Of a stretch of DNA of 64,000 nt, positions 35,948 through 53,813 are shown one piece after another (the stretch's first letter is position 1; every line of letters starts with the position of its first letter). The position numbers and the translations under genes were made by a program. The notes below the pieces were generated by a model. It was not told the origin of the DNA. It searched no databases and saw only the letters and a program-made list of their open reading frames with translations. The DNA comes from Phreatobacter sp. (lineage in GTDB: Bacteria > Pseudomonadota > Alphaproteobacteria > Rhizobiales > Phreatobacteraceae): NCBI RefSeq assembly GCF_027532945.1, contig NZ_JAPZTZ010000032.1:1-64000 (forward strand), read 5' to 3'.

Positions 35948-36529
35948 TCAATCGCGGCGTGGCGCCGCCCAGGGGCGCTCGGCCACATCGCGCGCCGTGA
36001 AGGCGGCAATGCTGTCCGCCTCGGCGAGCGTCAGGTCGATGTCGTCCCAGCCGTTGAGGAGCTGGGTGCGCCAGACCGGATCGATGCGGAACGGCACGAC
36101 GACATTGCCGCAGGCGATGGTCTGCGCCTCCAGGTCGACGGTTGCGGGGAGGGCTTCGATGCCGAGAAGCCGCTCGGCGTCCTCCTCGCTGACGGTTGCA
36201 GGCACCACGCCGTTCTTCACGCAATTCGAGGCGAAGATGTCGCCGAAGCTCGGCGCGATCACCGCCCGGAAGCCAAAATCGGCAAGGGCATAGACCGCCG
36301 CCTCGCGCGACGAGCCACAGCCGAAGTTCCGCCGCGCGACGAGGATCGTCTGGCCCGGTGCGGGGGCAGGGGCGGTTCCCTCCGCGACGAGGTCGCGGAG
36401 CAGGAAGCGGCCATAGCCCTCGGGCCTGCGCGGCTCCTTCATGAAGCGGGCAGGGATGAGCTGGTCGGTATCGACATTGGCGACGGGGAGCCGCATCAGC
36501 GCGGCGCTCTCGCGGGTGAACGGGGTCAT
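35948..36529 (-). CDS. leuD: LeuD-type hydro-lyase small subunit
   Basis: Small swivelling subunit of an aconitase-superfamily hydratase. The 193-residue protein carries DTDQLIPARF near residue 20 and RRNFGCGSSREAA near 66-78, the substrate-binding loop of LeuD. Its ATG overlaps the stop of the large-subunit gene (ATGA), so the two form one unit. Length and motifs match 3-isopropylmalate dehydratase. The setting, divergent from a catabolic operon with its own GntR regulator, suggests a paralogue used for a different diacid, such as a maleate- or dimethylmaleate-like substrate. Confidence 0.88.
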   Translation of the reverse strand: MTPFTRESAALMRLPVANVDTDQLIPARFMKEPRRPEGYGRFLLRDLVAEGTAPAPAPGQTILVARRNFGCGSSREAAVYALADFGFRAVIAPSFGDIFASNCVKNGVVPATVSEEDAERLLGIEALPATVDLEAQTIACGNVVVPFRIDPVWRTQLLNGWDDIDLTLAEADSIAAFTARDVAERPWAAPRRD

Positions 36530-37923
36530 GCGAACTGCCTCACATCGGTGAGTTTGCCCGTTACGGCCGCAGCTGCGACCATGGCGGGGGACATCAGGTG
36601 CGTCCGCGCGCCCGGTCCTTGGCGGCCCTTGAAGTTGCGGTTGGTTGTGGAGGCGCAGCGCTCGCCCGCCGGCACAGTGTCGCCGTTCATGCCCACGCAC
36701 ATGGAGCAGCCCGAGGCGACCCATTCGAGACCGGCTTCCGTGAAGATGCGGGCGAGGCCCTCCTCCTCGGCCTGCTGCTTCACCAGCGATGAGCCCGGCG
36801 AGACCATGCCCGGCACCCTCGCCCTGTGGCCGGCAAGGACCTTGGCGGCGGCCCGCAGGTCCTCGATGCGGGAATTGGTGCAGGAGCCGATGAAGACGCG
36901 ATCGACGGGCACCGAGGCGAGCGGCTGGCCGGGCGTCAGGCCCATATAGGCGATAGCGTCGCGGGCGGCGGCCGCCTTCACCGGATCGGCCATGGCCTCG
37001 GGGTCGGGCACGGCGGCGGTGATGGGCAGCGCCTGTTCCGGGCTCACACCCCAGGTCACGGTCGGGGCAATCACAGCGGCCTCCAGCGCCACCTCGCGGT
37101 CGAAGACGGCGTCGGCATCGCTCGCGAGCCCGGCCCAATCCTCCTGCGCCCGGTCCCACAGCGCGCCGTCGGGCGCGAAGGGGCGGCCCTTCAGATAGGC
37201 GACGGTCGTTCCATCAGGGGCGACCATGCCGCAGCGCCCCCCGGCCTCGATCGACATGTTGCAGAGGGTCATGCGTCCCTCCATCGACAGGGCGCGGATG
37301 GCCGTCCCGGCATATTCGATGGCGTGGCCGGCAGCGCCATCCGCGCCGATCGTGGCGATGATGGTCAGCATGATGTCCTTGGCGGTGATGCCGGGCGCGG
37401 TCGCGCCCTCGACGCTGATGCGCATCCGCTTCGGCTTCTTCTGCCACAGCGTCTGGGTCGCCAGCACATGGGCGACCTCCGAGGCGCCGATCCCGAAGGC
37501 ATAGGCGCCGAAAGCCCCGTGCGTTGAGGTGTGGCTGTCGCCGCAGACGACCGTCAGGCCGGGGAGCGTCAGGCCCTGCTCCGTCCCGGTGACGTGGACG
37601 ATGCCCTGCCGCGGGTCGTCGAGGCCGAACAGGGTGATTCCATGGGCCGCCGTATTGGCCGAGAGCTGGTCGACCATGCGGGCGATGGAGGCGTCGGGCA
37701 CCGGGCCGCCGCGGCCACGGGTCGGCACGTAATGGTCAGCGACGCCGAAGGTGAGGTCGGGACGGGCGACCTTCGCGCCCCGTGCGGCGATCTGTCCGAA
37801 GGCGTGATGGGAGCCCTCATGGACGAAATGGCGGTCGATCCACAGCAGCGAGAGGCCGTCTTCGCGGCGTTTCACCACGTGTCGGTCCCACAATCGGTCG
37901 AACAGGCTGGCAGGGCTGTTCAC
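36526..37923 (-). CDS. leuC: LeuC-type iron-sulfur hydro-lyase large subunit
   Basis: Large [4Fe-4S] subunit, 465 residues, close to biosynthetic proteobacterial LeuC in length. The cluster cysteines are visible as GSCTN and CSMC-containing GCSMCVGMN, and substrate residues in VCGDSHTSTHGAFGA. The enzyme adds or removes water across a double bond of a dicarboxylate; leucine biosynthesis is the default function. The start is GTG at 37923, with GGAG about 9 nt before it. It diverges from gntR across a region with two operator-like repeats, so the regulator probably controls it. Confidence 0.9.
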   Translation of the reverse strand: MNSPASLFDRLWDRHVVKRREDGLSLLWIDRHFVHEGSHHAFGQIAARGAKVARPDLTFGVADHYVPTRGRGGPVPDASIARMVDQLSANTAAHGITLFGLDDPRQGIVHVTGTEQGLTLPGLTVVCGDSHTSTHGAFGAYAFGIGASEVAHVLATQTLWQKKPKRMRISVEGATAPGITAKDIMLTIIATIGADGAAGHAIEYAGTAIRALSMEGRMTLCNMSIEAGGRCGMVAPDGTTVAYLKGRPFAPDGALWDRAQEDWAGLASDADAVFDREVALEAAVIAPTVTWGVSPEQALPITAAVPDPEAMADPVKAAAARDAIAYMGLTPGQPLASVPVDRVFIGSCTNSRIEDLRAAAKVLAGHRARVPGMVSPGSSLVKQQAEEEGLARIFTEAGLEWVASGCSMCVGMNGDTVPAGERCASTTNRNFKGRQGPGARTHLMSPAMVAAAAVTGKLTDVRQFA

Positions 37924-37960
37924 AGGGCATGCTCCGAAGATGCTTGACGCAAAAACATTG

Positions 37961-38006
37961 TATCATAGGATAGACAAGTCTCGCATTTTTGCTATCCCTA
38001 TTGATC
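37961..38006. promoter_or_regulatory. Paired inverted operator-like repeats between leuC and gntR
   Basis: TATCATAGGATAG (37961-37973) and CTATCCCTATTGATC (37992-38006) are inverted relatives of one another; each contains TATC-N4/5-GAT. Their centres are 31-32 bp apart. The first overlaps a possible leftward -10 (TACAAT, minus strand 37962-37957). They are good candidates for the binding sites of the adjacent GntR/HutC-type regulator. Confidence 0.5.
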
Positions 38007-38105
38007 GTACAGGCCAAAAGACAAATGCATGTTGCCACTGCACTCATCACGAGGCCGGCGCCCCCGCGGCGCCGCGTGGCGACGGGCCTGCGAGGGAGTG
38101 AAGGC

Positions 38106-38912
38106 ATGGCTGAAGCGATCGAGACGTCGAAGACGCGAAGGGTCTATCTCACCCTGCGCGACCGAATATCCTCCGGCGAACTGACACCTGGCACCCGGCT
38201 GCCCTCCGAACCCGATCTTGCCGAGCTCCACGACGTCTCGCGCGTCACCATCCGCCGGGCCCTGGCCGAGCTGGAGCGCGAGGGCCTGATCTCGCGCCGT
38301 CCCGGCGCCGGCACCTTCATCACCGCGCGGATGATCAAGCGCCCGATCGTCGCTGACCTGTCCAATGCGCTCGCCCACCTCGTCGAGATGGGCCGCTCCA
38401 CCGACGTCCGGCTGCTGCAGTTCGGCTATGTCGATCCCTCCCCGGAAGTGGCCGAGGCTCTGAAGCTGGACGATGGCGAGAAGGTGCAGCGCTCGGTGCG
38501 CGTGCGCATCATCGACGGCGAGCCCTTCTCCTATCTGGTGACCCATGTGCCCCAGCGCATCGGCACGACCTATTCGGAGGCCGAGCTCGGGGTCCAGCCG
38601 CTGCTGACGCTGATCGAGCGGTCCGGCGTGAAGGTCGACCGCGCCACCCAGACCATCACCGCGACGCTCGCCGGCCCGGATGTCGCCGAGGCCCTCGGCA
38701 TCGACATCGGCGCCCCGCTCCTCGCCCTGACCCGCGTGGTGTCGGACGTGAAGCGCCGCGGCATCGAGCACCTCGCGGCCTTCTACCGGCCCGACCGCTA
38801 CTCCTTCCAGATGGACCTCGTCCGCATCGATTCCGGCGGCGACCGCCTGTGGTCGCCGGTGGAGCGCCTGCGCATGGGCGTCGGTCTCAACGGAGCCACC
38901 GCCAACGACTGA
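38106..38912 (+). CDS. GntR-family regulator, HutC subfamily
   Basis: A 268-residue DNA-binding repressor with a winged helix at about 10-75 (LPSEPDLAELHDVSRVTIRRALAELEREGLI, then GAGTF) and a UTRA effector domain at about 95-250, with DLVRIDSGG at its end. HutC-type regulators sense small metabolites of the pathway they control. It is the first gene of the rightward catabolic cluster and diverges from leuCD. The operator-like pair in the divergent region fits control of both arms. A hairpin follows its stop. Confidence 0.92.
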   Translation: MAEAIETSKTRRVYLTLRDRISSGELTPGTRLPSEPDLAELHDVSRVTIRRALAELEREGLISRRPGAGTFITARMIKRPIVADLSNALAHLVEMGRSTDVRLLQFGYVDPSPEVAEALKLDDGEKVQRSVRVRIIDGEPFSYLVTHVPQRIGTTYSEAELGVQPLLTLIERSGVKVDRATQTITATLAGPDVAEALGIDIGAPLLALTRVVSDVKRRGIEHLAAFYRPDRYSFQMDLVRIDSGGDRLWSPVERLRMGVGLNGATAND

Positions 38913-38938
38913 CACCCCGCCGTGACCGCGGCGGGGTG
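38913..38938 (+). terminator. Hairpin between gntR and the binding-protein gene
   Basis: A 10-bp perfect stem (CACCCCGCCG / CGGCGGGGTG) with a 6-nt loop starts at the gntR stop. There is no T tract; it may be a partial terminator separating regulator from transport genes. Confidence 0.55.
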
Positions 38939-39018
38939 CCAACAACCCGAGACGATAGATCACGAGAGCCGGCGGAAAAGCCGGCCCCTTCCAGAGAGCA
39001 ACAGACGGAGAACGGACA

Positions 39019-40236
39019 ATGACGGCCTGGACCGAGCCCACACGACGCAGTCTTCTCGCCACCGGCGCCGCCGGCGCGGCACTCCTCGCCAGCCCTGGCC
39101 TGCTACGCGCCCAGGCGCCGGCGGTGAAGCTCGGCATCCTCCAGCCGGTGACTGGTGCGCTCGCCCAGGATGGCGAATACGGCCGCATCGGCGCACAGCT
39201 CGCCATCGACGAGATCAACAAGGCCGGCGGCATCAAGTCCCTCGGCGGCGCCATGATCGAGATGGTCTTCGGTGACGCGCGCTCGAACCCGGAGGCCGGT
39301 TCTCAGGAGGTCGAGAAGATGCATGCCGAGGGCGTCTCCGCCATCGTCGGCGGCTTCGCCTCGCCCATCTGCCTTGCCGCCTCGCAGGCCGCCTCGCGCT
39401 ACGACATCGCCTATGCGGTCGATGTCGGCGTGTCGGACCAGATCGTGTCGCGCGGCCTGAAGAACACCTTCCGCTTCGGCCCCGGCTTCGGCACGGTGAC
39501 CCGCACCGCCATCGAGAACCTCGTGAAGCTCAATGACGCCGCGGGCAAGCCGGCCAAGACCGTCGTGCTGGTTCACGAGGACGGCCTCTTCGGCTCGGGT
39601 CTCGCAAAGCTGATGAACGAGCGCCTCTCGGCCCTCGGCTTCCAGATTCTCGAGACCATCGCCCATCCGACGCCGGCCCGCGACATGTCCAACGTCGCGC
39701 TGCGCATCCGCGCGCTGAACCCGGATCTGGTGATCCCTTCGAGCTATTATGGCGAGTTCGTCCTGCTTGCCCGTACACTGCAGCAGCAGCGCATCCGGCC
39801 GAAGGGCATCTACGCGGTCCTCAACGGCGCGGCGTCCAACTTCCGCTTCGTGCGCGAGTTCCCGGATGCGGCCAACAACGTCATGGACTGCAACCACTGG
39901 GCCGATCCGCGCAAGCCGAAGACGGCCGAGCTGCGCAAGCAGGTCGAGGCCATGGGCCGGTTCTGGCTCTACAACGTGCCGCTGAACTATTCCTCGGTGC
40001 GCCTTGTCGCCGACGCCATCGACCGTGCCGGCTCGCGCGACCGCGTGAAGATCATCGAGGCCATGGCCTCCTCGACCTTCGCCGATCACATCATGCCCTA
40101 TGGCCCGACCAAGTTCGAGAACGGCCAGAACGTCAACGCCGCGCCGGTCAACACCCAGGTGCAGGGCGGCGACATCAAGGTGATCTTCCCCGACACCTTC
40201 GCCGACGCGAAGCCCGTCTTCCCCGTCACCGGCTGA
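39019..40236 (+). CDS. Branched-chain-type ABC transporter substrate-binding protein
   Basis: Periplasmic binding protein, 405 residues, of the Leu/Ile/Val-type family (Peripla_BP_6). It begins with a twin-arginine-like leader (TRRSLLATGAAGAALLAS, cleavage near RAQA), so export may be by Tat. The mature part opens VKLGILQPVTGALAQDGEYGRIG and has the hinge element ARSNPEAGSQEVEKM. Ligands of this family include amino acids, amides, urea and aromatic acids; this one is unknown. GGAGA lies about 8 nt before the ATG. It is the transporter's first gene. Confidence 0.92.
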   Translation: MTAWTEPTRRSLLATGAAGAALLASPGLLRAQAPAVKLGILQPVTGALAQDGEYGRIGAQLAIDEINKAGGIKSLGGAMIEMVFGDARSNPEAGSQEVEKMHAEGVSAIVGGFASPICLAASQAASRYDIAYAVDVGVSDQIVSRGLKNTFRFGPGFGTVTRTAIENLVKLNDAAGKPAKTVVLVHEDGLFGSGLAKLMNERLSALGFQILETIAHPTPARDMSNVALRIRALNPDLVIPSSYYGEFVLLARTLQQQRIRPKGIYAVLNGAASNFRFVREFPDAANNVMDCNHWADPRKPKTAELRKQVEAMGRFWLYNVPLNYSSVRLVADAIDRAGSRDRVKIIEAMASSTFADHIMPYGPTKFENGQNVNAAPVNTQVQGGDIKVIFPDTFADAKPVFPVTG

Positions 40237-40280
40237 TCGTTTCTCCCGGGCCGTCCGCAGCCCGGCCCACCGCTCCCGCC

Positions 40281-40304
40281 CGTGGCCGCAATCCAGCGGC
40301 CACG
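40281..40304 (+). promoter_or_regulatory. Intercistronic hairpin between binding protein and permease genes
   Basis: A 9-bp perfect stem (CGTGGCCGC / GCGGCCACG) with a 6-nt loop. Hairpins here commonly let the binding protein be made in excess over the membrane parts. Confidence 0.5.
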
Positions 40305-40333
40305 CGGCATCGCATTTGCCGAGAGGCTCCGAC

Positions 40334-41215
40334 GTGTTCAGATCCTATCCGCCGCAAATCGTGCTGGAGGCCGTGCTCAACGGCCTCCTCACCGGCGCCG
40401 TCTATGCGCTGGTGGCGCTGGGCCTGACCCTGGTCTACGGGGTCCTCCACATCATCAATTTCGCCCACGGCGCCATGCTGACCCTCGCCATGTTCGCGGT
40501 GCTGGTCGTGCATCTCGGCCTCGGGCTCGATCCCTATCTCGCCATCCTGCCGCTGACGCCGCTCTTCTTCGGTATCGGCTACGCCATGCAGCGTTTCGTC
40601 ATCTCGCCGGCGAGCCGCAACGATGATGGCGCGATCCTCCTGGTGACACTCGGTCTCTCCATCGTGCTGGAGAATCTGCTCCTCGCGATCTTCCGCTCCG
40701 ATACGCGCTCGCTGACCCTCGACTATTCCTTCTCGGTCGTGGATCTCGGCTTCGCGCTGCTGTCGCTGCCGCGCGTCATCGGCTTCGGTGTCGCCATCCT
40801 CGTCGCCGCCGCGCTCTGGGCGATCCTGGCGCTCACCGACACCGGCAAGGCGATCCGCGCCGTGGCCCGCGAGAAGCTCGGCGCTTCGCTGGTCGGCATC
40901 GACGTGAACCACATCTACGCGGTCACTTTCGGCCTCGGCGCCGCGACGCTGGCGGTCGCCGCCTGCCTGCTCATGCCGTCCTTCTACGTCAATCCGCGCG
41001 TCGGCAACGCCTTCGTCCTCGTCGCCTTCACCGTGGTGGTGCTGGGCGGCATGGGGTCCATCCCCGGCGCGCTGGTCGGTGGCCTGTTCATCGGCGTGGT
41101 GGAAAGCCTTTGCGGCCTCTATCTCGGCGAGAGCCTCGGCCAGATCGGCATCTTCCTGATCTTCATCCTGGTCCTGCTCTTCCGCCCGACCGGCCTGTTC
41201 GGAGCCAAGGCATGA
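40334..41215 (+). CDS. ABC transporter permease, LivH type
   Basis: Inner-membrane permease of 293 residues from GTG at 40334 (GAGAGG 7 nt upstream). Eight or so hydrophobic segments are seen, with the LivH hallmarks GLLTGAVYALVALGLTLVYGVLHIINFAHG at the start and GGMGSIPGALVGGLFIGVVE near the end, which contacts the ATPase. It pairs with the LivM-type permease, whose start codon overlaps its stop. Confidence 0.92.
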   Translation: MFRSYPPQIVLEAVLNGLLTGAVYALVALGLTLVYGVLHIINFAHGAMLTLAMFAVLVVHLGLGLDPYLAILPLTPLFFGIGYAMQRFVISPASRNDDGAILLVTLGLSIVLENLLLAIFRSDTRSLTLDYSFSVVDLGFALLSLPRVIGFGVAILVAAALWAILALTDTGKAIRAVAREKLGASLVGIDVNHIYAVTFGLGAATLAVAACLLMPSFYVNPRVGNAFVLVAFTVVVLGGMGSIPGALVGGLFIGVVESLCGLYLGESLGQIGIFLIFILVLLFRPTGLFGAKA

Positions 41216-42234
41216 AAGCCTATCGCTCCCTCCTCGTCGTCATCGCGGCCCTCGCGGCCCTTCCGCTCGCCGTGCCGCTGCTCGTCGGCGCCGGCCTCTT
41301 CGCCGGGCCCAACACCTTCTACAACCTGATGATCTTCATCCTGATCATCACGCTGGCCGCGCAGGGCTGGAACATCGCCGGCGGCTATGGCGGCCAGTTC
41401 TCCTTCGGCCACGCCGCCTTCTTCGGCACCGGCGCCTATGTCCAAGCGGTGCTCCAGACGCGCTACGGCGTCAACGCCTGGGTGGCGCTGCCGCTGGCGG
41501 CACTGCTCGGCGGTCTCGTGGGGGCCGCGATCGGCACGCTCGCCTTCCGCGCCCGCCTGCGCGGGTCCTATTTCGCGCTGGTGACGCTCGCCTTCGCCGA
41601 GGTCTTCCGCATCCTCGCCAATGCCACCCCGATCACCGGCGGCGCGGCCGGCACGCTGGTGCCGCTGAAGATCGGCCTCGGCCAGATGCAGTTCGCCTCG
41701 TCGACGACGTTCTTCTACCTGGCGCTTACCTTCGTCGCGGCCGTGCTCCTGCTCAACCGCGCGCTCGAACGCTCACGCTTCGGTGCCTGGCTGGTGGCCG
41801 TCCGCGAGAACGAGGACGCCGCGCGCGCCCTCGGCGTGGACACGCTGAAGGTGAAGCTCAAGGCCATCACGCTGTCGGCTGCCATCACGGCCGTCGCTGG
41901 CGCGCTCTACACCCAAAAGTTCCTCTATATCGATGCCAACATCGCCTATGGCGCCTGGATCTCGGTCGAAGCGCTGCTCGCCCCCATCGTCGGCGGCATC
42001 GGCACGGTGCTCGGGCCCTTCATCGGCGCCGTGGCGCTGATCGGGCTCGGCGAGGCGGCGAAGACCGCCATCCATGCTGTCTTCGGTTCGGCGGTGCCGG
42101 GCGTTGACCTCGTCGTTTACGGCGTACTGCTCATCGTCGTCATCGCCTTCGCGCCGCGCGGCCTTCTTGGCCTCTTCGGCAAGTTCGACCTCTTCGCCAG
42201 GTTCGGGATCTTCGGAAAGAGGGGAGGGCGCTGA
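41212..42234 (+). CDS. ABC transporter permease, LivM type
   Basis: Second permease, 340 residues, with about nine membrane segments and the LivM signatures GYGGQFSFGHAAFFGTGAY and LRGSYFALVTLAFAEV. The conserved ATPase-coupling loop is VRENEDAARALGVD. It overlaps the preceding gene by 4 nt (ATGA) and the next by one (TGATG). Confidence 0.92.
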   Translation: MKAYRSLLVVIAALAALPLAVPLLVGAGLFAGPNTFYNLMIFILIITLAAQGWNIAGGYGGQFSFGHAAFFGTGAYVQAVLQTRYGVNAWVALPLAALLGGLVGAAIGTLAFRARLRGSYFALVTLAFAEVFRILANATPITGGAAGTLVPLKIGLGQMQFASSTTFFYLALTFVAAVLLLNRALERSRFGAWLVAVRENEDAARALGVDTLKVKLKAITLSAAITAVAGALYTQKFLYIDANIAYGAWISVEALLAPIVGGIGTVLGPFIGAVALIGLGEAAKTAIHAVFGSAVPGVDLVVYGVLLIVVIAFAPRGLLGLFGKFDLFARFGIFGKRGGR

Positions 42235-42966
42235 TGCTCGACGTCCGCTCCGTTACCAAGCGCTTCGGCGGCCTCGTCGCCGTCAGCGATGTCAGCCTCA
42301 CCGTGCCGGAGGGCTCGATCACCGGCCTGATCGGCCCGAACGGTGCCGGCAAGACCACGCTGTTCACGCTGATCTCCGGCTTCCAGGTGCCGACGGCCGG
42401 TGAGGTCCTGTTTCGCGGCGAGGACATCACGGGACGCGCACCCGAGCGCCTCGCCGTCATGGGCATCGCCCGCACCTTCCAGATCGTCCAGCCCTTCGCC
42501 GGCCTGTCGGTCGCCGAGAACATCGCGGTCGGCGCCTATCTCCGCCATGCCGGGCGGGCCGAGGCCATGGCCCGGGCGGAAGCGGTCGCGGCGATGGTCG
42601 GCCTCGCCGATCTCGACCGCCCCGCCTCGTCCCTCACTGTTGCCGGCCGCAAGCGGCTGGAGCTCGCCCGCGCGCTCGCCACCGAGCCGCAGCTCCTCCT
42701 CCTCGACGAGGTGCTCGCGGGCCTCAACCCCTCCGAGATCCGCGACATCATCCCGGTGATCCGCGCCATCCGTGATGCCGGCGTCACGATCCTCATGATC
42801 GAGCATGTCATGCAGGCGGTGATGAGCCTGTGCGAGCACGTGCATGTGCTGGCGAACGGCCGCCTGATCGCCGCCGGCACGCCGGCCGAGGTCGTCGGCA
42901 ATCCCGCGGTCGTCGAGGCCTATCTCGGCCATGGCGCCGCCGGCCGCCTGCAGAAGGGTGCCGCGA

Positions 42967-42974
<8 letters not shown>
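42234..42974 (+). CDS. ABC transporter ATPase, LivG type
   Basis: ATP-hydrolysing subunit, 246 residues. The Walker A is GPNGAGKTT (about residue 34-42) and the Walker B LLLLDEVLAGLNPSE. The signature motif reads LTVAGRKRLELARAL instead of the common LSGGQ; such a variant is known in part of this family. The last 20 residues form the LivG-type extension. It overlaps the next ATPase gene by 8 nt. Confidence 0.92.
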
Positions 42975-43680
<706 letters not shown>

Positions 43681-43691
43681 GGGGAAGCGCC

Positions 43692-45095
43692 ATGGCCATT
43701 GTCACACCCGGCGTGAAGACCGCCACCGAACTCGCCGCCGAGCCCCGCTCGCCCTGGCTCGCCGAGTTTTCTGCCTTCGCGGCACGCCTCACCTTCGAGG
43801 ACCTGCCGGCCGAGGTGGTCGAGCGCACCAAGCGCGTGATCGCCGACAGCATCGGTGCGATCGCAGCGGGCATGGCGGAGCCGGAGATGCGGGCGCTGCT
43901 CGACCGCCTGGCGCGGCTCGAAGGCACCGGCCCGGCACCGGTCATCGGTGCGGGGGTGAGCCTGTCGCCCTCCAACGCCGCCTTTATGGGCGGCATCGCC
44001 GGCACCATGCTGGAGCTGGACGAGGGCAACCAGTACGCCCGCGGCCATCCCGGCATCCATGTGGTCCCGGCCGCGCTCGCCACCGCCGTCCGCTGCGGCG
44101 CGGATGGTCGTGACCTCATCGTTGCGGTCGCGCTTGGCTACGAGATCGGCGCGCGCATCGGCATCGCCTCGAAGCTCGTCGTCACCATGCACCCGCACGG
44201 CACCTGGGGCACTGTCGGTGCGGCCCTGGCGGTGGCCAAGCTCCACAAGGCGGATGCGGCCGATATGGCCGCGACCATCAACATCGCCTCCTCGCTCGGC
44301 CTCACCACCAGCCGCAAGACCATGCTGGAAGGGGCGACGATCCGGAACAGCTATGCCGGCTTCTCCAACAAGCTCGGCCTCTGGGCCTGGGAGATGATGT
44401 CCTCCGGCCTCACCGGCGAGCGCGACGGCGTCGCCACCGTCTATGACACGGTCGCCGCCACCGATTTCCGCCCCGAGGCGATGGTGGAGGAGCTCGGCAC
44501 CCGCTGGGAGATCGCCCGCAACTACTTCAAGCGCCACGCCGCCTGCCGCTACACCCATGCGGCGCTCGATGCGCTCGGCGAGATCCTTGAGGCAAGCGGC
44601 CCGGTCGACCCGCGCGACGTGCTCGGCATCGATGTCGAGACCTATGTCTGGGCCGCCCAGCTCGACGATCCCGAGCCGCGCTCCATGCTGGCGGCGAAGT
44701 TCTCGCTGCCCTTCGCGCTGGCCACCACCCTCGTCAACGGCGCGGCCACCATCGCCGCCTTCCGCGACGAGGCCCGCGGCGACCGGGTCACCCGCGCGCT
44801 CGCGAACCGCGTCGCCGTCACCGAGGATCCGGCGCTCACCGCCATGCTCCCCGCCGCCAGGCCCGCGCGGGTGACGCTGCGCCTCGCCGACGGCCGCAGC
44901 TTCACTGCCCTCGCCACGACCAATCGCGGCGACACCGAGAATCCCTATTCGGCCTCCGACGTGGAGGCGAAATTCGTCGAGATCACCGCCCCGGTCTGGG
45001 GCGAGGCCCATGCCCGCCGCATCTGGACGGCGGCCGGGGCCCTCGATGGAGACATGGACCCGGCGCGCCTCGTGGCGCTCGCCGTGGTCGCTTGA
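43692..45095 (+). CDS. MmgE/PrpD family protein
   Basis: A 467-residue protein of the family that includes 2-methylcitrate dehydratase (PrpD), cis-aconitate decarboxylase and iminodisuccinate epimerase. Family marks are EFSAFAARLTFEDLPAEVVERTKRVIADSIG at the start, the MHPHGTWGTVGAA substrate loop and FKRHAACRYTHAALDA near residue 275. These enzymes act on carboxylic acids by proton abstraction. It lies between the transporter and a C-C lyase, so a dehydratase, isomerase or decarboxylase step on a diacid or triacid is plausible. GGGGAAG lies 5-6 nt before the ATG. Confidence 0.88.
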   Translation: MAIVTPGVKTATELAAEPRSPWLAEFSAFAARLTFEDLPAEVVERTKRVIADSIGAIAAGMAEPEMRALLDRLARLEGTGPAPVIGAGVSLSPSNAAFMGGIAGTMLELDEGNQYARGHPGIHVVPAALATAVRCGADGRDLIVAVALGYEIGARIGIASKLVVTMHPHGTWGTVGAALAVAKLHKADAADMAATINIASSLGLTTSRKTMLEGATIRNSYAGFSNKLGLWAWEMMSSGLTGERDGVATVYDTVAATDFRPEAMVEELGTRWEIARNYFKRHAACRYTHAALDALGEILEASGPVDPRDVLGIDVETYVWAAQLDDPEPRSMLAAKFSLPFALATTLVNGAATIAAFRDEARGDRVTRALANRVAVTEDPALTAMLPAARPARVTLRLADGRSFTALATTNRGDTENPYSASDVEAKFVEITAPVWGEAHARRIWTAAGALDGDMDPARLVALAVVA

Positions 45096-45106
45096 GGAGA
45101 CATGCC

Positions 45107-45997
45107 ATGAGTTCCACCAGTCCCGCCGCGCGGCTCAAGCAGCGCCTGGACCAGCGTCCGGTCCTGCTGGCCCCCGGCGCCGTCGATCCGCTGACGGCCC
45201 AGATCGCGGTCTGCGCCGGTTTCGAGGCGCTGTACCTCACGGGCGCCGGCATCGCCTACACACGGCTCGGCATGCCGGATATCGGCCTCACCACCATGAA
45301 CGACGTCACCGACGTCATCACCCGCATCGCCGATAAGGTCTCGGTGCCGCTCATCGTCGACGGCGATACCGGCTTCGGCAATGCCCTCAACGTCCAGCGC
45401 ACGGTGCGCAACTTCGAGCGCGCGGGGGCAGCCGCGATCCAGCTCGAGGACCAGACCTTCCCCAAGCGCTGCGGCCACCTGCGCGGCAAGGCCGTGGTCC
45501 CGACCGATGAGATGGTCGGCAAGATCAAGGCGGCGGTGGATGCCCGCCAGAACGGGCTTCTCGTCATCGGCCGGACCGATGCGGGCGCCGTCGAGGGCTT
45601 CGAGCGCGCCTTCGAGCGGGCCGAGATCTATGCCGAGGCCGGCGCCGACATCATCTTCGTCGAGGCCCCGCGCACCCGCGAGGAGCTGTCCTCCGTGCCG
45701 CAGCGGCTCGGCAAGCTGCGCCCGCTCATGGCCAACATGGTGGAGGGTGGCCGCACGCCCATGACCCCGGTCGCCGATCTCGAGGCCATGGGCTTCAGCC
45801 TCGTCGTCTTCTCCGCCGGCGTCGTCCGCGCCATGGCCAAGACCGCCCGCCGCTTCTACGACACGCTGCGCACCGAGGGCACGACCGACCCGATCCGCGA
45901 GGACATGTACGACTTCGACGAGCTCGCCGACATCGTCGGCACCAGCGACCTCCTCGCCATCGGCAAGCGCTACGACACGACCGGGGGTGAGGCGTGA
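45107..45997 (+). CDS. Isocitrate lyase/PEP mutase family C-C lyase
   Basis: A 296-residue TIM-barrel enzyme of the isocitrate lyase/phosphoenolpyruvate mutase superfamily. The magnesium site DGDTGFGNALN lies at 85-93, EDQ at 114-116, and the active-site loop KRCGHLRGK at 120-128 contains the catalytic cysteine that marks true lyases. Its size fits 2-methylisocitrate lyase or 2,3-dimethylmalate lyase rather than full-length isocitrate lyase. Such enzymes split a substituted malate to pyruvate or glyoxylate plus an acid. GAGGAGA precedes the start. It shares a GTGA overlap with hyuB. Confidence 0.9.
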   Translation: MSSTSPAARLKQRLDQRPVLLAPGAVDPLTAQIAVCAGFEALYLTGAGIAYTRLGMPDIGLTTMNDVTDVITRIADKVSVPLIVDGDTGFGNALNVQRTVRNFERAGAAAIQLEDQTFPKRCGHLRGKAVVPTDEMVGKIKAAVDARQNGLLVIGRTDAGAVEGFERAFERAEIYAEAGADIIFVEAPRTREELSSVPQRLGKLRPLMANMVEGGRTPMTPVADLEAMGFSLVVFSAGVVRAMAKTARRFYDTLRTEGTTDPIREDMYDFDELADIVGTSDLLAIGKRYDTTGGEA

Positions 45998-47646
45998 GCC
46001 TCGATCCGGTCACGCTCGCGGTCCTCAAGGGCCGGCTTGAGCAGATTGCCGACGAGATGGACGCGACGCTCTATCGCTCGGCCTTCAACCCGATCATCGC
46101 CGAGGCGCGCGACGCCTGCCACGGCCTCTATCACCGGGAGACCGGCGACACGCTCGTCCAGGGCACCAAGGGTCTGCCGATCTTCGTCGGCGCCATGGCC
46201 TTCGCGGTGAAGGCGGTGATCGAGAAGGTGAAGGCGCAAGGCGGCCTCAAGCCCGGCGACACCTTCATCTTCAACGACCCTTACGCCGGCGGCACCCATC
46301 TCAACGATTTCCGCCTGGTGCGGCCGGTCTTCCGCGATGGCGCGCTGTTCTGCTGGCTGGCCTCCGCCGGCCACTGGCTTGATGTCGGCGGCAACGTGCC
46401 GGGCGGCTACAACCCGGTCGCGACCGAGAGCTTCCAGGAGGGCGTGCTCATCCCAGTGGTGAAGCTCATAGCCGGCGGCGAGACGCGCCAGGACGTGCTC
46501 GACATCCTCGCGGCCAATTCCCGACTGCCGAATTCCAACTGGGGCGACCTCAACGGTCAGCTCAATGCCCTCGACCTCGGCGAGAAGCGCCTTCAGGCCC
46601 TGCTCGGCGACTATGGCCAGGCGGTGATCGAGGAGGCCTTCGACGCCTTCTCGGCCCGCGCCGAGGCGCTGATGCGCGAGGCCATCGCCGCGCTGCCCGA
46701 CGGCACCTATGCCTTCGAGGACTATCTCGACAATGACGGCATCGTCGACGAGCGGCTCACCGTCGCTCTCGACCTGACGATCTCCGGCGAGACCATGGTG
46801 CTCGATTTCTCGCGCTCCTCGCCGCCCTGCGCCGGCCCGATCAACATCTCGACGCCGACCACCATCGCCGCCTGCTACGTGGCGCTGAAGCACGTCTTCA
46901 CCGATGTGCCGGCCAATGCCGGCTGCCTCAAGCCCATCACCTTCGTGGTCCCCGATACGACGCTGCTGGGGGCCAAGGCGCCGAAGCCCATGGCGGGCTA
47001 CACCGAGACCATCCTGCGCCTCATCGGCGTCGTCTTCGGCGCGCTTGCCAAGGCGGTCCCGGAGCGGGCGACCGCCGGGCCCTTCGGCACGATCAATGCG
47101 CTGTCCATGGCCGGCCACCGCGCCAATGGCAGCCGCTGGGTCATGTTCAACTTCTTCGGCGGCGGTCTCGGCGGCAATCCCGAGAGCGACGGCCTCAACC
47201 ACGCCAACAACCCGATCTCGACGGCCACCATGCCACCGGTCGAGATCCTCGAGGCAGCATATCCCATCATGTTCACGCAGTGGGCGCTTCGCCCGGATTC
47301 CGGCGGCGAGGGGGCCCATCGCGGCGGCCTTGGCGCCATCTATGAGATCGAGGTGCTGGACGCGCGCGGCGCCGAAGTCTTCCTTCTCGGCGAGCGCGGC
47401 CGCTATGCGCCCTTCGGCGTCAATGGCGGCGGGGCAGGGGCGCTGAACCGCTTCTCCTGGACGGATGGCAAGACCACCGGAACCCCGCCCATGGCCTCAA
47501 AGGTCACCGGCGTGAAGTTGGCCCAGGGCGGCCGCGTCCGCCTGGAAACGCCCGGTGGCGGCGGCTTCGGCGATCCCGCCACCCGTGACCCGGCCGCGAG
47601 CGAGCGCGACCTGCGCCTCGGCTATGTGACGGGAGCCAAGGCATGA
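45994..47646 (+). CDS. hyuB: Hydantoinase B / oxoprolinase family subunit
   Basis: A 550-residue subunit of an ATP-dependent cyclic-amide hydrolase (hydantoinase B, 5-oxoprolinase or acetophenone-carboxylase type). Family motifs include YRSAFNPIIAEARDACHGLYH near the start, NDPYAGGTHLNDFRLV near residue 90, and FNFFGGGLGGNPESDG. It starts at GTG overlapping the preceding stop and ends overlapping the HyuA gene, which indicates a coupled complex. The ring opened is not known. Confidence 0.92.
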   Translation: MSLDPVTLAVLKGRLEQIADEMDATLYRSAFNPIIAEARDACHGLYHRETGDTLVQGTKGLPIFVGAMAFAVKAVIEKVKAQGGLKPGDTFIFNDPYAGGTHLNDFRLVRPVFRDGALFCWLASAGHWLDVGGNVPGGYNPVATESFQEGVLIPVVKLIAGGETRQDVLDILAANSRLPNSNWGDLNGQLNALDLGEKRLQALLGDYGQAVIEEAFDAFSARAEALMREAIAALPDGTYAFEDYLDNDGIVDERLTVALDLTISGETMVLDFSRSSPPCAGPINISTPTTIAACYVALKHVFTDVPANAGCLKPITFVVPDTTLLGAKAPKPMAGYTETILRLIGVVFGALAKAVPERATAGPFGTINALSMAGHRANGSRWVMFNFFGGGLGGNPESDGLNHANNPISTATMPPVEILEAAYPIMFTQWALRPDSGGEGAHRGGLGAIYEIEVLDARGAEVFLLGERGRYAPFGVNGGGAGALNRFSWTDGKTTGTPPMASKVTGVKLAQGGRVRLETPGGGGFGDPATRDPAASERDLRLGYVTGAKA

Positions 47647-49688
47647 CCACGCTCGTTGGCGTCGATGTCGGTGGCACCTTCACCGACCTGTTCTTTCTCG
47701 ACGAGGCGGCGGGCACGTTCCGCACCGCCAAAGTCCCCTCGAACCGCGGCGACGAGGCCGTCGGCTTCCTCGAGGGCCTGAAGACCTTCGGGGCGCTGTC
47801 CGCGCTCGGCTCCATCGTCCATGGCACCACGGTCGGCACCAATGCGCTGCTGGAGCGCAAGGGCGCCCGCATCGGCGTGATCACCACGGCCGGCTTCCGC
47901 GACGTCCTGGAAATGCGCCGCCGCGACCGCGCCAATACCTGGGGCCTGTGGGGTGACTTCATCCCCGTCGCCGACCGCGACCTGCGCGTCGAGGTGGCCG
48001 AGCGGACGCTGGCGGATGGCACGGTGCGGCAGGCGGTTGACCCGTCGGAGGTCGCTGCTGCCGCCAGGCGTCTGGTCGAGGGGGGCGCCACCGCTCTCGC
48101 CATCCTCTTCATCAACGCCTATGCCAACCCCGCCAACGAGCGCGCGGCGGCGGCGGCGGCCCGTGCCGTCTGGCCGAACGACCACGTCTCGGTCTCATCC
48201 GAGATCCTGCCCGAGATCCGCGAGTTCGAGCGGGCCTCGACCACGGCGCTCAACGCCTATCTCCAGCCCGTCGTCGGCTCCTACCTCGCCAAGCTCGAGG
48301 CGGCGCTCGCCAGCGAGGCCTTCACCGGCGCCTTCCACATCGTCCAGTCGAATGGCGGCGTCATGTCGACGGCGACCGCGCGGCGCCTGCCCGTGCGCAC
48401 GGCGCTGTCGGGACCTGCGGCCGGCGTCATCGCCGCGGCGGCGATCTCCACCGCCGCCGGCTATCCCGACATCATCACCGGCGATCTCGGCGGCACCTCC
48501 TTCGACGTGTCGCTCATCGCGGGCGGCGAGGCGGCGCTGGCGGCCCAGACCACCATCGATTTCGGCCTCGTCATCCGCTCGCCGATGATCGAGATCACCA
48601 CGATCGGCGCCGGCGGCGGCTCCATCGCCCGCGTCGACCGCGGCGGCTTCCTCGAGGTCGGCCCGGAAAGCGCCGGCTCCCGCCCCGGTCCGGTCGCCTA
48701 TGGCCAGGGCAATGACCGCCCGACGCTCACCGACGCCAATATCGTCCTCGGCCGCATCAATGCCGACCGCCCCATCGGCGGCAAGCTCAAGCGGCTCGAT
48801 GTCGAGGCGGCCCGGCAGGCGCTGGCGAACCATGTCGGCGATCGCCTCGGCCTGTCGCCGGAAGAGGCGGCGGAAGCCGTGGTGCGCGTCGCCGATGCCC
48901 GCATGGCTGGCGCCATCCGCCTCGTCTCGGTGGAGCGCGGCCATGACCCCGCGCGCTTCGCCTTCGTGCCCTTCGGCGGCGGCGGTGCCCTCCATGCCGG
49001 CGCGATGATCGCCGATATAGGCCTGAAGGCGGCGCTCGTGCCGCGCTTCCCCGGCGTGACCTCGGCCATGGGCTGCGTCATGGCGGACATCCGCCACGAC
49101 CAGGTGCAGACCCTGAACCTCACGCTCGACGGGCTCGATGCGAGCGCCCTCGACCGCCGCATGGCGGAGGAGGGGGCCGCCGCCCATGCGGTGGTTGCCG
49201 GCGCCGGGCTCACCGTCGGGCGGATCGACGTCACCTACGAACTCGACATGCACTATCTCGGCCAGACCCATACGGTGGCCGTGCCGCTGCCTGTCACACT
49301 GGCGAACGGCACGACGGGTGTGACCGAGGCCGTCGTCCGCGCCGCCTTCGAGGCCGCCTATTCGCGCGCCTTTTCGCGGCTCCTGCCGGGCCTTGGCATC
49401 CGCATCGTCAACCTGCGCACCACCGCCATCGGCCGTCGCCCGCCCATCGACCTGACGACGCTCGCTCCCGCCGCCGCGGCGACGCTGGAGGGCGCCCGCA
49501 CCGGTTCCCGCAAGGTCTGGTTCGGCGGCTGGCGCGAGGCTGCCGTCTTCGCCCGCCTCGACCTTCCCGTCGGCGCGGTGGTGGAGGGCCCGGCCGTGCT
49601 CGAACAGCCGGACGCGACCATCCTCGTGCCGCCCGGCCAGCGCGGCCGCGTCGATGCCTTCGGCAACATCGTCCTGGAGCGCGTCTGA
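47643..49688 (+). CDS. hyuA: Hydantoinase A / oxoprolinase family ATPase subunit
   Basis: A 681-residue partner of HyuB, with an actin-like ATPase fold. It starts VGVDVGGTFTDLFFLDEA, has HGTTVGTNALLERKGARIG near residue 60 and ALSGPAAGVIAAA near 265, then GGTSFDVSLI. ATP is used to activate the amide or carbonyl. Together with HyuB it probably opens a lactam, hydantoin or imide ring. It is overlapped by four nucleotides upstream and one downstream. Confidence 0.92.
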   Translation: MTTLVGVDVGGTFTDLFFLDEAAGTFRTAKVPSNRGDEAVGFLEGLKTFGALSALGSIVHGTTVGTNALLERKGARIGVITTAGFRDVLEMRRRDRANTWGLWGDFIPVADRDLRVEVAERTLADGTVRQAVDPSEVAAAARRLVEGGATALAILFINAYANPANERAAAAAARAVWPNDHVSVSSEILPEIREFERASTTALNAYLQPVVGSYLAKLEAALASEAFTGAFHIVQSNGGVMSTATARRLPVRTALSGPAAGVIAAAAISTAAGYPDIITGDLGGTSFDVSLIAGGEAALAAQTTIDFGLVIRSPMIEITTIGAGGGSIARVDRGGFLEVGPESAGSRPGPVAYGQGNDRPTLTDANIVLGRINADRPIGGKLKRLDVEAARQALANHVGDRLGLSPEEAAEAVVRVADARMAGAIRLVSVERGHDPARFAFVPFGGGGALHAGAMIADIGLKAALVPRFPGVTSAMGCVMADIRHDQVQTLNLTLDGLDASALDRRMAEEGAAAHAVVAGAGLTVGRIDVTYELDMHYLGQTHTVAVPLPVTLANGTTGVTEAVVRAAFEAAYSRAFSRLLPGLGIRIVNLRTTAIGRRPPIDLTTLAPAAAATLEGARTGSRKVWFGGWREAAVFARLDLPVGAVVEGPAVLEQPDATILVPPGQRGRVDAFGNIVLERV

Positions 49689-50284
49689 TGGACCTTGCCC
49701 GCACCGCCCTCCTGATCTGCGATCTGCAGAACGACTTCCTCCACCCCGATGGCGCCTATGGCCGTGCCGGCCAGTCCGCGCCGGAGATCGCGGCGCTGCC
49801 CGCCCGCTTGAAGCCGCTGGCCGACAGGATCCGCACCGGTGGCGGCTGGATCGTGTCGACCCATTTCACCCTGGTCCCGGGTAAGGGCGGCGAGCCCTTC
49901 ATCTCCGACCATCTCAAGAAGCTCCGGCCGTTCCTCAGGAAGGGCGACTTCGTGCCGGGCTCCTGGGGCCACGACACTGTGGACGCTCTCCAGCCCATGG
50001 ACATCAAGGTGGAGAAGGTCGCCTATTCCGCCTTCTACATGTCGCGGCTGGAATGGGTCCTGAAGAAAGCCGGCATCGACCATCTCCTCGCCTGCGGCAT
50101 AGTCACCAATGGCGGCGTCGCCTCGACGGTGCGCGACGCCCATGTGCGCGACTTCCACGTGACGGTGATCGAGGACGGTTGCGCCGCCTTTTCCCCGAAG
50201 GTGCACGACGAGGCCATTGCGGGCCTCAGGCCGGTGGCGCGGATCGCGACCGTGGCAGAGTTGCTGGCGGAGATCGGGGGGTGA
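49688..50284 (+). CDS. Isochorismatase-fold protein lacking the usual nucleophilic Cys
   Basis: A 198-residue protein of the isochorismatase/cysteine hydrolase superfamily. The catalytic Asp is in LICDLQNDF (about residue 11) and the Lys in VEKVAYSAF (about 107-115). In amidohydrolases the next motif is G-x-x-T-N-x-C-V-x-x-T, but here it reads GIVTNGGVAST, with Gly at the cysteine position. True isochorismatases also have Gly there. So it is unlikely to be an ordinary Cys amidohydrolase; an acid-base hydrolase or a protein that has lost activity are the alternatives. It overlaps hyuA by one nucleotide. Confidence 0.85.
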   Translation: MDLARTALLICDLQNDFLHPDGAYGRAGQSAPEIAALPARLKPLADRIRTGGGWIVSTHFTLVPGKGGEPFISDHLKKLRPFLRKGDFVPGSWGHDTVDALQPMDIKVEKVAYSAFYMSRLEWVLKKAGIDHLLACGIVTNGGVASTVRDAHVRDFHVTVIEDGCAAFSPKVHDEAIAGLRPVARIATVAELLAEIGG

Positions 50285-50291
50285 GAGCGCC

Positions 50292-51689
50292 ATGTCCCGC
50301 ATCCTGACCGACGACCTGCCCTTCGACCTGACTGTCCCGGTCGCCATCGTCGGCGGTGGCGCCGCGGGCCTTTGTGCCGCGCTGGCGGCCAAGGAAGCCG
50401 GCGTCGAGCCGATCGTCTTCGAGCGCGACGCGCTGCCCCAGGGCTCCACCGCGCTCTCGGCCGGCCTCATCCCCGCCCCGGGCACCGCGGCCCAGCGGGC
50501 CGCCGGTATCGCCGACAGCGTTACCGCCTTCGCCGCCGACATCCAGGCGAAGGCGCATGGCGAGGCGGACCCGACCGTCCTCGCCGCCGTGGCCGAGGGC
50601 GCCGCCCCGGCCATCGACTGGCTGACCGAGCGCCACGGCCTCGCCTTTACCGTCATCGCCGACTTCTCCTATCCCGGCCATTCCGCGCGGCGGATGCATG
50701 GCCTCGCCTCGCGCTCCGGGGCCGAGCTCATCGACCGGCTGCGCGCCGCGGCCGAGGCGGCAGCGATCGACATCGTCACCGAGGCGCGCGCCACGGCCCT
50801 CATCGCCGGACCTGACGGCCGCGTCCGCGGCCTCGTGGTGACCCGGCCCGACGGCAGCGCGGACCGCATCGGCTGCGACGCCCTCGTGCTCGCCTGCAAC
50901 GGCTATGGCGGCAACAAGACCCTCGTCGCCGAGCACATCCCGGCGCTGAAGGACGCGCTCTATTTCGGCCATCCCGGCAACCAGGGCGACGCGGTGCTCT
51001 GGGGGCAGGCGCTCGGCGCGGAGCTGAAGCACATGGGCGGCCACCAGGGCCACGGCTCCGTCGCCCATCCCCACGGCATCCTCGTCTCCTGGGCCGTCGT
51101 CATGGAGGGCGGCTTCCAGGTGAACACGGCCGGCGAGCGCTTCTGGAACGAGGCCTCGGGCTATTCGGAGGCGGCCCTCGCCGTGCTCGGCCAGCCCGGC
51201 GGCATCGCCTGTGACATCTTCGACGCGCGCATCGCCGGCATCGCCCGGCAGTTCGAGGACTTCCGCCGTGCCGAGGCGGGCGGCGCTGTCCTTCAAGCGG
51301 AATCATCGGATGAACTGGCGGCGCGCCTCAGCATTCCGCCGCAAGTGATTCGCGCGACTCTCGAATCCGTCGCCGATCTCAAGCGCCGTGGAGGCCGCGA
51401 TTCCTTCGGGCGCGACTGGAGCGGCGCCGCCGATCTCGTGCCGCCCTATTGCGCGGTGAAGGTGACGGGCGCGCTGTTTCACACACAGGGCGGCCTTGCC
51501 GTCGATGCGAGCGCCCGCGTGCGCCGTCCCGATGGCTCGCTCCTGCCCAACCTCTTTGCGGCAGGGGGCGCGGCGGTGGGGGTGTCGGGACCCGATGCAT
51601 CCGGCTATCTTTCCGGCAACGGACTGCTGACCGCCGTGGTGCTCGGACGCATCGCCGGAGGGGAGGCGGCCCGGCTCGCCCGCGCCTGA
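50292..51689 (+). CDS. Fumarate-reductase-like FAD-dependent oxidoreductase
   Basis: A 465-residue flavoprotein of the fumarate reductase/succinate dehydrogenase/ketosteroid dehydrogenase family. The FAD fold is VAIVGGGAAGLCAALAAKEAG near residue 17, and the second FAD site LPNLFAAGGAAVGVSGPDASGYLSGNGLLTAVVLGRIAG at the end. ARRMHGLASRSGAELIDRL and LACNGYGGNKTLV lie between. No covalent-FAD or cytochrome domain is attached, so it needs another electron partner or acts as a dehydrogenase. Reduction or oxidation of the double bond of the pathway's diacid is likely. It starts 8 nt after the previous stop. Confidence 0.87.
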   Translation: MSRILTDDLPFDLTVPVAIVGGGAAGLCAALAAKEAGVEPIVFERDALPQGSTALSAGLIPAPGTAAQRAAGIADSVTAFAADIQAKAHGEADPTVLAAVAEGAAPAIDWLTERHGLAFTVIADFSYPGHSARRMHGLASRSGAELIDRLRAAAEAAAIDIVTEARATALIAGPDGRVRGLVVTRPDGSADRIGCDALVLACNGYGGNKTLVAEHIPALKDALYFGHPGNQGDAVLWGQALGAELKHMGGHQGHGSVAHPHGILVSWAVVMEGGFQVNTAGERFWNEASGYSEAALAVLGQPGGIACDIFDARIAGIARQFEDFRRAEAGGAVLQAESSDELAARLSIPPQVIRATLESVADLKRRGGRDSFGRDWSGAADLVPPYCAVKVTGALFHTQGGLAVDASARVRRPDGSLLPNLFAAGGAAVGVSGPDASGYLSGNGLLTAVVLGRIAGGEAARLARA

Positions 51690-53621: not shown

Positions 53622-53715
53622 CATCGTAGGGTTGCATGACCTTGCGGAATATACCTGCCGTAGGGCGCATTTGCACACGAAGTGGTCGCCCCGTACCGTT
53701 TTGTTAACTGAATTC

Positions 53716-53751
53716 CCCCGATGGTTTTCGCGAAAAGTTGAACCATCGGGG
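53716..53751 (+). promoter_or_regulatory. Hairpin that covers the likely ribosome site of the next gene
   Basis: An 11-bp perfect stem (CCCCGATGGTT / AACCATCGGGG) with a 14-nt loop, itself holding TTTTCGCGAAAA. The 3' arm includes the GGGG that would serve as ribosome site for the chemoreceptor. It may control translation. Confidence 0.55.
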
Positions 53752-53813
53752 CTGACATACAGTTTCTCTCCCGCCTCCCTCTGGCCGCCAAGGTCGCCGC
53801 GCTTGCCGCGCTG

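Follow-up and report, generated by a model that had tools for sequence, protein, structure and literature searches.

Do genes annotated for leucine biosynthesis, branched-chain amino acid uptake, a "cysteine hydrolase" and a "hydantoinase" belong to one catabolic pathway when they lie side by side? This question was raised by a run of genes between positions 35948 and 51689 of a 64,000 bp stretch of Phreatobacter sp. DNA (contig NZ_JAPZTZ010000032.1; the whole stretch is referred to here as the window). Comparison with other genomes confirmed that this operon is a real, widely conserved bacterial unit. The gene set most likely imports a small cyclic amide, opens its ring and cleaves the acid so formed into two common metabolites, and it has apparently not been described in bacteria before. 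If this is true, the genes form a single pathway for a nitrogen-containing ring, annotations would have to be corrected in many genomes, the substrate is evidently used by many bacteria, and the branch of the isochorismatase superfamily that has no Cys would gain a function.

A first-pass annotation, made from the letters of the window alone, had listed the genes of this run. Every one of them was found, with order and strands as given there, by open reading frame calls and hidden Markov model (HMM) scans, and its interpretation as a whole was partly supported. Gene families were called with curated equivalog cut-offs (NCBIfam/TIGR) and Pfam HMMs. The genome to which the window belongs (G000) is a 4.13 Mb assembly that is 97% complete. 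The features were as follows:

35948-36529, minus strand: LeuD-type hydratase small subunit, probably a dedicated paralog (TIGR00171, 140.6 bits, cut-off 116; a second LeuD lies elsewhere in the genome)
36526-37923, minus strand: LeuC-type [4Fe-4S] hydratase large subunit with Cys348, Cys406 and Cys409 (TIGR00170, 653.7 bits, cut-off 560)
37958-37977, no strand: putative operator TTGTATCATAGGATAGACAA, an imperfect inverted repeat in the leuC-gntR gap, identified from its conservation in the genus and uniqueness in the genome
38106-38912, plus strand: GntR/UTRA-domain regulator (PF00392 and PF07702 above cut-off)
39019-40236, plus strand: periplasmic binding protein of the Liv/HAAT type, Peripla_BP_6 (PF13458, 158 bits; solved relatives mostly Leu/Ile/Val-binding by name)
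40316-41215, plus strand: LivH/UrtB-type permease (HMM scan)
41110-42234, plus strand: LivM/UrtC-type permease, start uncertain (HMM scan)
42234-42974, plus strand: LivG-type ATPase (HMM scan)
42931-43680, plus strand: LivF-type ATPase, start uncertain (HMM scan)
43677-45095, plus strand: MmgE/PrpD protein, an optional member (PF03972, PF19305)
45107-45997, plus strand: C-C lyase of the isocitrate lyase (ICL)/phosphoenolpyruvate (PEP)-mutase family with a KRCGH loop and DxD (PF13714)
45994-47646, plus strand: HyuB, metal subunit of an ATP-dependent lactamase (PF02538, 574 bits; Asp40, His102, Asp105, His127)
47643-49688, plus strand: HyuA, the ATP subunit (PF01968/PF05378/PF19278; DVGGTFTD, DLGGT, GSRPGP)
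49688-50284, plus strand: isochorismatase-fold protein in which Asp12 and Lys110 are accompanied by Gly at the position of the nucleophilic Cys (PF00857; GIVTNGGVAST)
about 50292-51689, plus strand: flavin adenine dinucleotide (FAD) protein of the flavocytochrome c/fumarate reductase fold, with Tyr at both substrate Arg positions (PF00890)

With the starts used, some of which are uncertain, 6 of the 11 junctions overlapped by 1-4 bases. The regulator had been called HutC-type; the GntR/UTRA fold was borne out, but the score of 113.6 bits fell below the HutC equivalog cut-off of 220, so the name holds at the level of the fold only.

Recurrence of the gene set in the genus and beyond

Conserved co-occurrence in other genomes, which the first-pass annotation had named as a check, was found. 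The set recurred in 10 of 11 genus-mates, these being all 10 whose region was read (G004 and G010 were read up to HyuA, together with the isochorismatase position, and G001 was covered for LeuC only). The complete set, including LeuCD, was kept in G003, G005, G006, G007, G009 and G011. G002, G004, G008 and G010 carried the set without a PrpD ortholog (G004 has one 30% homolog elsewhere), the lyase lying directly behind the second ATPase; the isochorismatase was in place in all four and the flavoprotein was seen in G002 and G008. The 4.13 Mb of the window genome contain 2 genes of the PEP-mutase family, which puts the chance of one falling within 20 kb at about 1%.

A search of genome contigs in which aligned isochorismatase-fold sequences served as the query revealed at least 228 relatives. 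The best 80 loci, mostly from Alphaproteobacteria by record title, were fetched; many of these end at contig ends. By identity thresholds they encoded HyuA (76), HyuB (72, each together with HyuA), the lyase (59), the flavoprotein (49), the binding protein (44), GntR (23), PrpD (20), a hydratase of the LeuC type (18) and an archaeal-type LeuC (17). The lyase was present in 45, and a hydratase in 35, of the 55 loci that were at least 20 kb long. When the flavoprotein was used as a second anchor it was found in 13 of 398 genomes, including the window genome. The other 12 loci (L059-L070) contained the lyase in 10 cases and an aconitase-type hydratase in 9, not counting the 44% LeuC found at the L070 edge; this set overlaps the 80 loci, as at least 3 of its 12 genomes are common to both.

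The isochorismatase was carried by 30 plasmid records, six of which were fetched. Plasmid records of Sulfitobacter, Azospirillum and Neorhizobium contained clusters with the lyase and flavoprotein, and that of Tistrella a partial cluster. The Betaproteobacteria Paraburkholderia and Variovorax had a cluster with archaeal-type LeuCD and without PrpD; the flavoprotein was not found in the Paraburkholderia stretch fetched. No lyase relative was present in the viral contigs scanned with the lyase. By record titles and sources, bacteria with the cluster come from soil, plants, freshwater and the sea.

The first-pass annotation had stated that no described pathway has this exact set, and no description was found in the literature searched, which left most subscription journals outside its reach. 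Branched-chain amino acid uptake alone, which it had named as a competing explanation, does not account for the locus, as the set is more than that.

Ring opening and nitrogen removal

HyuAB had been proposed to open the ring. This was supported by intact HyuAB motifs and by other cyclic amidohydrolase families in clusters that showed no HyuAB. All of the ATP and metal motifs that PMC8453981 defines for the HyuA/HyuB family were present: DxGGTxTD, DxGGT and GxxPGP lie at 8, 281 and 345 of HyuA, and the Asp-His-Asp-His metal site of HyuB has a spacing of 62/3/22, compared with 58/3/22 in CapB. These motifs and the subunit make-up are shared with the caprolactamase CapAB/N-methylhydantoinase family, whereas the window HyuAB scored 480.2 and 289.5 bits against caprolactamase equivalog cut-offs of 1000 and has other operon partners.

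In three lineages (G243; G480 and G792; G765) the stretch read had no HyuAB and encoded other cyclic amidohydrolases instead. PuuE-like proteins together with a Cys-type isochorismatase were found in G243 (L050 and L158, a cluster that also retains PrpD), G480 (L063, where two PuuE-like proteins, both PF01522, are adjacent) and G792 (L065), and an AllB/dihydropyrimidinase-like amidohydrolase was found in G765 (L067). At E 1e-30, none of these four genomes contained the window-type isochorismatase. The exchange of HyuAB for other cyclic amidohydrolase families is the strongest sign here that the step is a ring opening. The Cys-type isochorismatase partner (P0009) has TSGC at the nucleophile position. 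Among solved structures its best match was 4l07 (99.9 bits), together with 4l08, followed by the N-carbamoylsarcosine amidohydrolase 26st (89.3 bits), 3ot4/3uao (75.8 bits) and 1nba (70.0 bits); we take 4l07 and 3uao to be maleamate amidases. In addition, the gene immediately following the flavoprotein in one HyuAB-type cluster (L053:17535-18449) encodes a PuuE allantoinase above the curated cut-off (435.4 of 424.6), and L099 encodes a close relative of it.

The isochorismatase-fold gene lay beside HyuA in 76 of the 80 loci. Asp12 and Lys110 were invariant in 13/13 sequences. The motif GIVTNGGVAST was found in 85 of 94 reads, which count some genomes twice, and close variants in 8. GIVTNGGV with Gly at the Cys position accounted for 91 of these reads, 2 variants were also without Cys and 1 was unreadable; no Cys was present in the 93 readable ones. 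The window protein does not have the Asp-Lys-Cys triad of Cys amidohydrolases (NicF, CSHase, RutB). As Gly replaces the nucleophilic Cys, a simple half-amidase role is doubtful, and half-amidase action by Cys chemistry was rejected for this protein. "Cysteine hydrolase", the label that it has in public records, is misleading. In the public records of L167 and L168 LeuCD is assigned to leucine biosynthesis and the isochorismatase-fold protein to the cysteine hydrolases, in both cases probably wrongly.

Bacterial degradation of cyclic imides proceeds through an imidase and a half-amidase. The gene set resembles this route in that ring opening would be followed by nitrogen removal to a dicarboxylate, but its opener is the ATP-dependent HyuAB and its second enzyme has no amidase Cys. 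We know of no physiological role for YecD of Escherichia coli. The same Asp-Lys-Gly set is described for E. coli YecD and EntB in PMC12553813, according to which replacing the Gly of YecD by Cys conferred amide hydrolysis, whereas the wild type did not hydrolyse those amides. The cluster protein differs from the YecD/EntB group in adjoining HyuA and in its conserved GIVTNGGVAST block. By analogy it may carry out an acid-base C-N cleavage, as isochorismatase acts on an enol ether, or it may have another role.

Hydratase, lyase and flavoprotein

MmgE/PrpD had been chosen as the hydratase of the set, and the leuCD pair, though listed, had been given no place in the pathway. The data favour LeuCD instead as the better-supported one. 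All three Fe-S cysteines of LeuC are present, LeuC and LeuD both scored above the cut-offs of the 3-isopropylmalate dehydratase families, and an ortholog of the window LeuC was found in 11/11 genus-mates, split in two in G010. In that genome the operon-linked LeuC matched as two overlapping pieces in different frames (G010:C326:48967-50354), which represents a frameshift or an assembly error.

The divergent gap between leuC and the regulator is 182 bp long and contains the putative operator. Its first 11 bases, TTGTATCATAG, were kept in 10 of 11 genus sequences including the window, and the variant in G007 keeps the same ends. The putative operator had no other match in the 4.13 Mb genome at up to 3 mismatches, and its pattern occurred 0 times in shuffles of the window. 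The regulator presumably binds this candidate operator. The window pattern was absent from every locus examined outside the genus, loose TTGT..ACAA matches in four distant loci being weak, and a palindrome scan of the gap between gntR and the binding protein gene found nothing conserved.

LeuCD is co-directional and at the operon end in Azospirillum and Methylobacterium. A distant LeuCD of the archaeal/homoaconitase class replaces LeuCD in 16 of the 80 loci and sits beside it in 1. This archaeal-type LeuCD is located before the lyase, has a large subunit of approximately 37-39% identity and is accompanied by PrpD in just 1 of the 17 loci; the one large and one small subunit scanned belonged to the hacA_fam and LeuD/DmdB classes. 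The hydratase role is given to LeuCD because it diverges on a genome-unique candidate operator, lies at the operon end elsewhere and is exchanged for the archaeal type. The possibility that leuCD is a mere neighbour was rejected, as in different taxa it either adjoins the cluster or is replaced inside it. Such module exchange between clusters was observed directly in the DNA, as were the gene set, its conservation, the candidate operator and the motifs.

A further LeuC of approximately 55% identity, presumably the leucine-synthesis enzyme, was found in 10 of 11 genus-mates; none was seen in G010, which is 85% complete. It was not found in the window's own assembly at 97% completeness, and a search of this genome with the 10 kb around the further LeuC of G006 gave the window LeuC and short weak matches only. 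The second LeuD is present in this genome, and the further LeuC is likely missing through an assembly gap. Since no further LeuC was found in the assembly, the window LeuCD may have a part in leucine synthesis.

PrpD was missing in 4 of the 10 genus-mates read and, being absent from many clusters, was rejected as an essential hydratase. Among the 20 of 80 loci that bear PrpD, LeuC was also present in 9 and PrpD occurred without it in 11, so a hydratase role of PrpD in some clusters is possible. The window MmgE/PrpD protein scored 26.6 of the 950 bits needed for the PrpD (2-methylcitrate dehydratase) equivalog, and its nearest solved structures belong to the IDS-epimerase and cis-aconitate decarboxylase family.

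The intact catalytic Cys loop that had been noted in the lyase was found throughout, with DxD and K(R)CGH in 17/17 cluster lyases. A plain 2-methylisocitrate lyase had been considered as an alternative, and this does not hold, as the window lyase reached 296.1 bits against the 354.4 needed for prpB. The Arg of the MQTR motif, which we take to be a functional residue of the methylisocitrate lyase PrpB, is replaced by Phe in 16/17 and by Leu in 1/17 cluster lyases; two methylisocitrate lyases had an alignment that reaches this position, and both have Arg opposite the Phe. This replacement suggests a substrate side chain without a carboxylate. The methylcitrate cycle (PrpB, PrpD) shares with the window the superfamily of its lyase and of its MmgE/PrpD protein, but differs in the two scores and in the Arg to Phe change, and there is no PrpC in the set.

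In the nicotinate fermentation of Eubacterium barkeri, dimethylmaleate hydratase is followed by 2,3-dimethylmalate lyase. The likeness lies in an aconitase-family heterodimeric hydratase that precedes an ICL/PEP-mutase-family lyase acting on substituted malates, and some of the clusters described here use the archaeal-type LeuCD class with DmdB in its NCBI name. The two systems differ in that the window operon encodes no B12 mutase, methylitaconate isomerase or hydroxynicotinate reductase, and in that it adds HyuAB, a flavoprotein and an ATP-binding cassette (ABC) transporter.

In the flavoprotein, Tyr occupies the two positions of Arg402 and Arg544 of flavocytochrome c3 (20/21 and 21/21 sequences), which by our numbering we take to be the substrate-binding residues of that enzyme. 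The two His of flavocytochrome c3 are kept (20/21 and 21/21) and a YPGH..RMHG block is conserved. With Tyr at both Arg positions and a conserved block of its own, the protein is no standard fumarate reductase. An acyl-coenzyme A (CoA) dehydrogenase and a CaiB-type CoA-transferase lie between the isochorismatase and LeuCD in Tistrella, and in this genus only; the position of this dehydrogenase within the cluster suggests that desaturation is part of the pathway.

The probable substrate and the neighbouring genes

From these families we infer the reactions, their order and the substrate of the operon. Our preferred reading, to which we give a little less than even confidence, is the regulated catabolism of a cyclic imide with a substituted five-membered ring, or of a cyclic amide closely related to it; a substituted succinimide is the likeliest. 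Import of the compound would fall to the Liv-type ABC transporter, HyuAB would hydrolyse the ring amide at the expense of ATP, and nitrogen removal aided by the isochorismatase-fold protein would give a vicinal dicarboxylate. The FAD protein would dehydrogenate this to an ene-diacid, LeuCD would add water to form a substituted malate, and the isocitrate-lyase-family enzyme would cleave the latter to a 2-oxo acid and a carboxylic acid. MmgE/PrpD may be an accessory isomerase or hydratase and is dispensable in many clusters. A succinimide-type ring is favoured because an imide would directly yield the vicinal diacid for the hydratase-lyase pair. In a bolder form, which we consider improbable, the cluster would be a widespread and undescribed proteobacterial route that mineralises natural substituted cyclic imides such as pigment-breakdown products, the Cys-less isochorismatase-fold protein would catalyse a new C-N cleavage, and LeuCD would have been recruited as a catabolic hydratase.

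Several observations weigh against the succinimide pathway. Within the DNA fetched, 21 of the 80 loci had no lyase and 35 had no hydratase. The flavoprotein is without the two dicarboxylate-binding Arg of flavocytochrome c3, and the Tistrella acyl-CoA dehydrogenase is no clean replacement for it because Tistrella has two flavoprotein homologs at a different locus (L048). Nitrogen removal in HyuAB-type clusters would proceed without an obvious amidase, given Gly for Cys and the behaviour of wild-type YecD. The PuuE- and AllB-like proteins scanned scored 118.6 of 424.6 and 214.9 of 357.85, short of the curated cut-offs. A molybdenum hydroxylase large subunit was found in 9 loci (L086, L106, L110, L115, L117, L119, L122, L128 and L147; two were scanned), where it follows the isochorismatase or, in L147, lies behind the flavoprotein; within the DNA fetched, 9/9 of these loci had no lyase and 8/9 no flavoprotein. 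As the lyase and mostly the flavoprotein are missing, the opener in these loci may be the same but receive another ring compound. Finally, neighbour clustering of 116 loci, some genomes being counted twice, revealed a hydantoin/allantoin-racemase-like gene in 11, of which one was matched against solved structures. This neighbour points to a ring with a stereocentre, against a plain maleimide, and with the allantoinase-like openers it fits a hydantoin too.

A 5-substituted hydantoin or ureide is a possible though unlikely substrate. The flavoprotein would then make a C=C bond beside the ring, HyuAB would yield an N-carbamoyl enamide, the isochorismatase-fold protein would hydrolyse this to a 2-oxo acid and urea, and LeuCD and the lyase would finish a carboxylated side chain. 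Besides the racemase-like gene and the PuuE- and AllB-like openers, the closeness of P0009 to N-carbamoylsarcosine amidohydrolase and the Asp-Lys-Gly site common to EntB and YecD, as given in PMC12553813, agree with such a scheme. A hydantoin alone, however, gives no vicinal diacid for the hydratase and lyase, and no HyuC-type N-carbamoyl amino acid hydrolase was among the proteins scanned, which were only part of the neighbours.

Two further substrates are improbable. The first-pass annotation had speculated on a maleimide-like product of pigment breakdown, for which no specific support was obtained. By analogy, a dialkyl maleimide released when tetrapyrroles are broken down, such as methylethylmaleimide or hematinic acid, might pass through a maleamate, a dialkylmaleate and a dialkylmalate before cleavage, by the same hydratase-lyase logic as dimethylmaleate in nicotinate fermentation, and an old yellow enzyme gene lies beside some clusters. 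The lyase Phe is compatible with methylethylmaleimide; hematinic acid is disfavoured, as the Phe suggests a side chain without a carboxylate. Such a ring offers no stereocentre to a racemase and needs no desaturase, and among the papers listed on imide and maleimide catabolism none gave support. Nor is the cluster tied to phototrophy. The window genome has two reaction-centre genes (PF00124; G000:C6:141031-142696) and is that of a phototroph, but the reaction-centre family was found in only 10 of 24 genomes searched, its own included, and within the genus in 5 of 12, its own included, the other 7 having none. A link to phototrophy was rejected on this ground, and photosynthesis is not required.

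The other substrate, with an equally small share of our confidence, is an unsaturated lactam, for example the tetrahydro-oxonicotinate formed in nicotinate breakdown, from which HyuAB would release an enamine acid for hydrolysis by the isochorismatase-fold protein. An active site limited to acid-base chemistry would suit enamine hydrolysis, and the molybdenum hydroxylase beside 9 loci agrees with it, but none of those loci had a lyase in the DNA fetched and the product would be an aldehyde acid, not an expected LeuCD substrate. That the locus merely combines genes for leucine biosynthesis and for branched-chain amino acid transport with a propionate-type lyase unrelated to them is very improbable: leuC and leuD score above leucine-biosynthesis cut-offs, and are so annotated in public records, and no second LeuC was found in the assembly, but the further LeuC of the genus-mates, the second LeuD of the window genome, the co-occurrence of the genes and the joining or exchange of LeuCD within the cluster across taxa contradict it.

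A tautomerase or SnoaL-like gene was present in several loci. Behind the operon, the window encodes a 639-codon M24 aminopeptidase-like open reading frame and a chemoreceptor (51702-55463). These were rejected as operon members, since M24 was found in 0/80 distant loci. Their position reflects synteny within the genus instead, M24 lying behind the operon in 8/8 genus-mates read that far and the chemoreceptor in the 2 read furthest.

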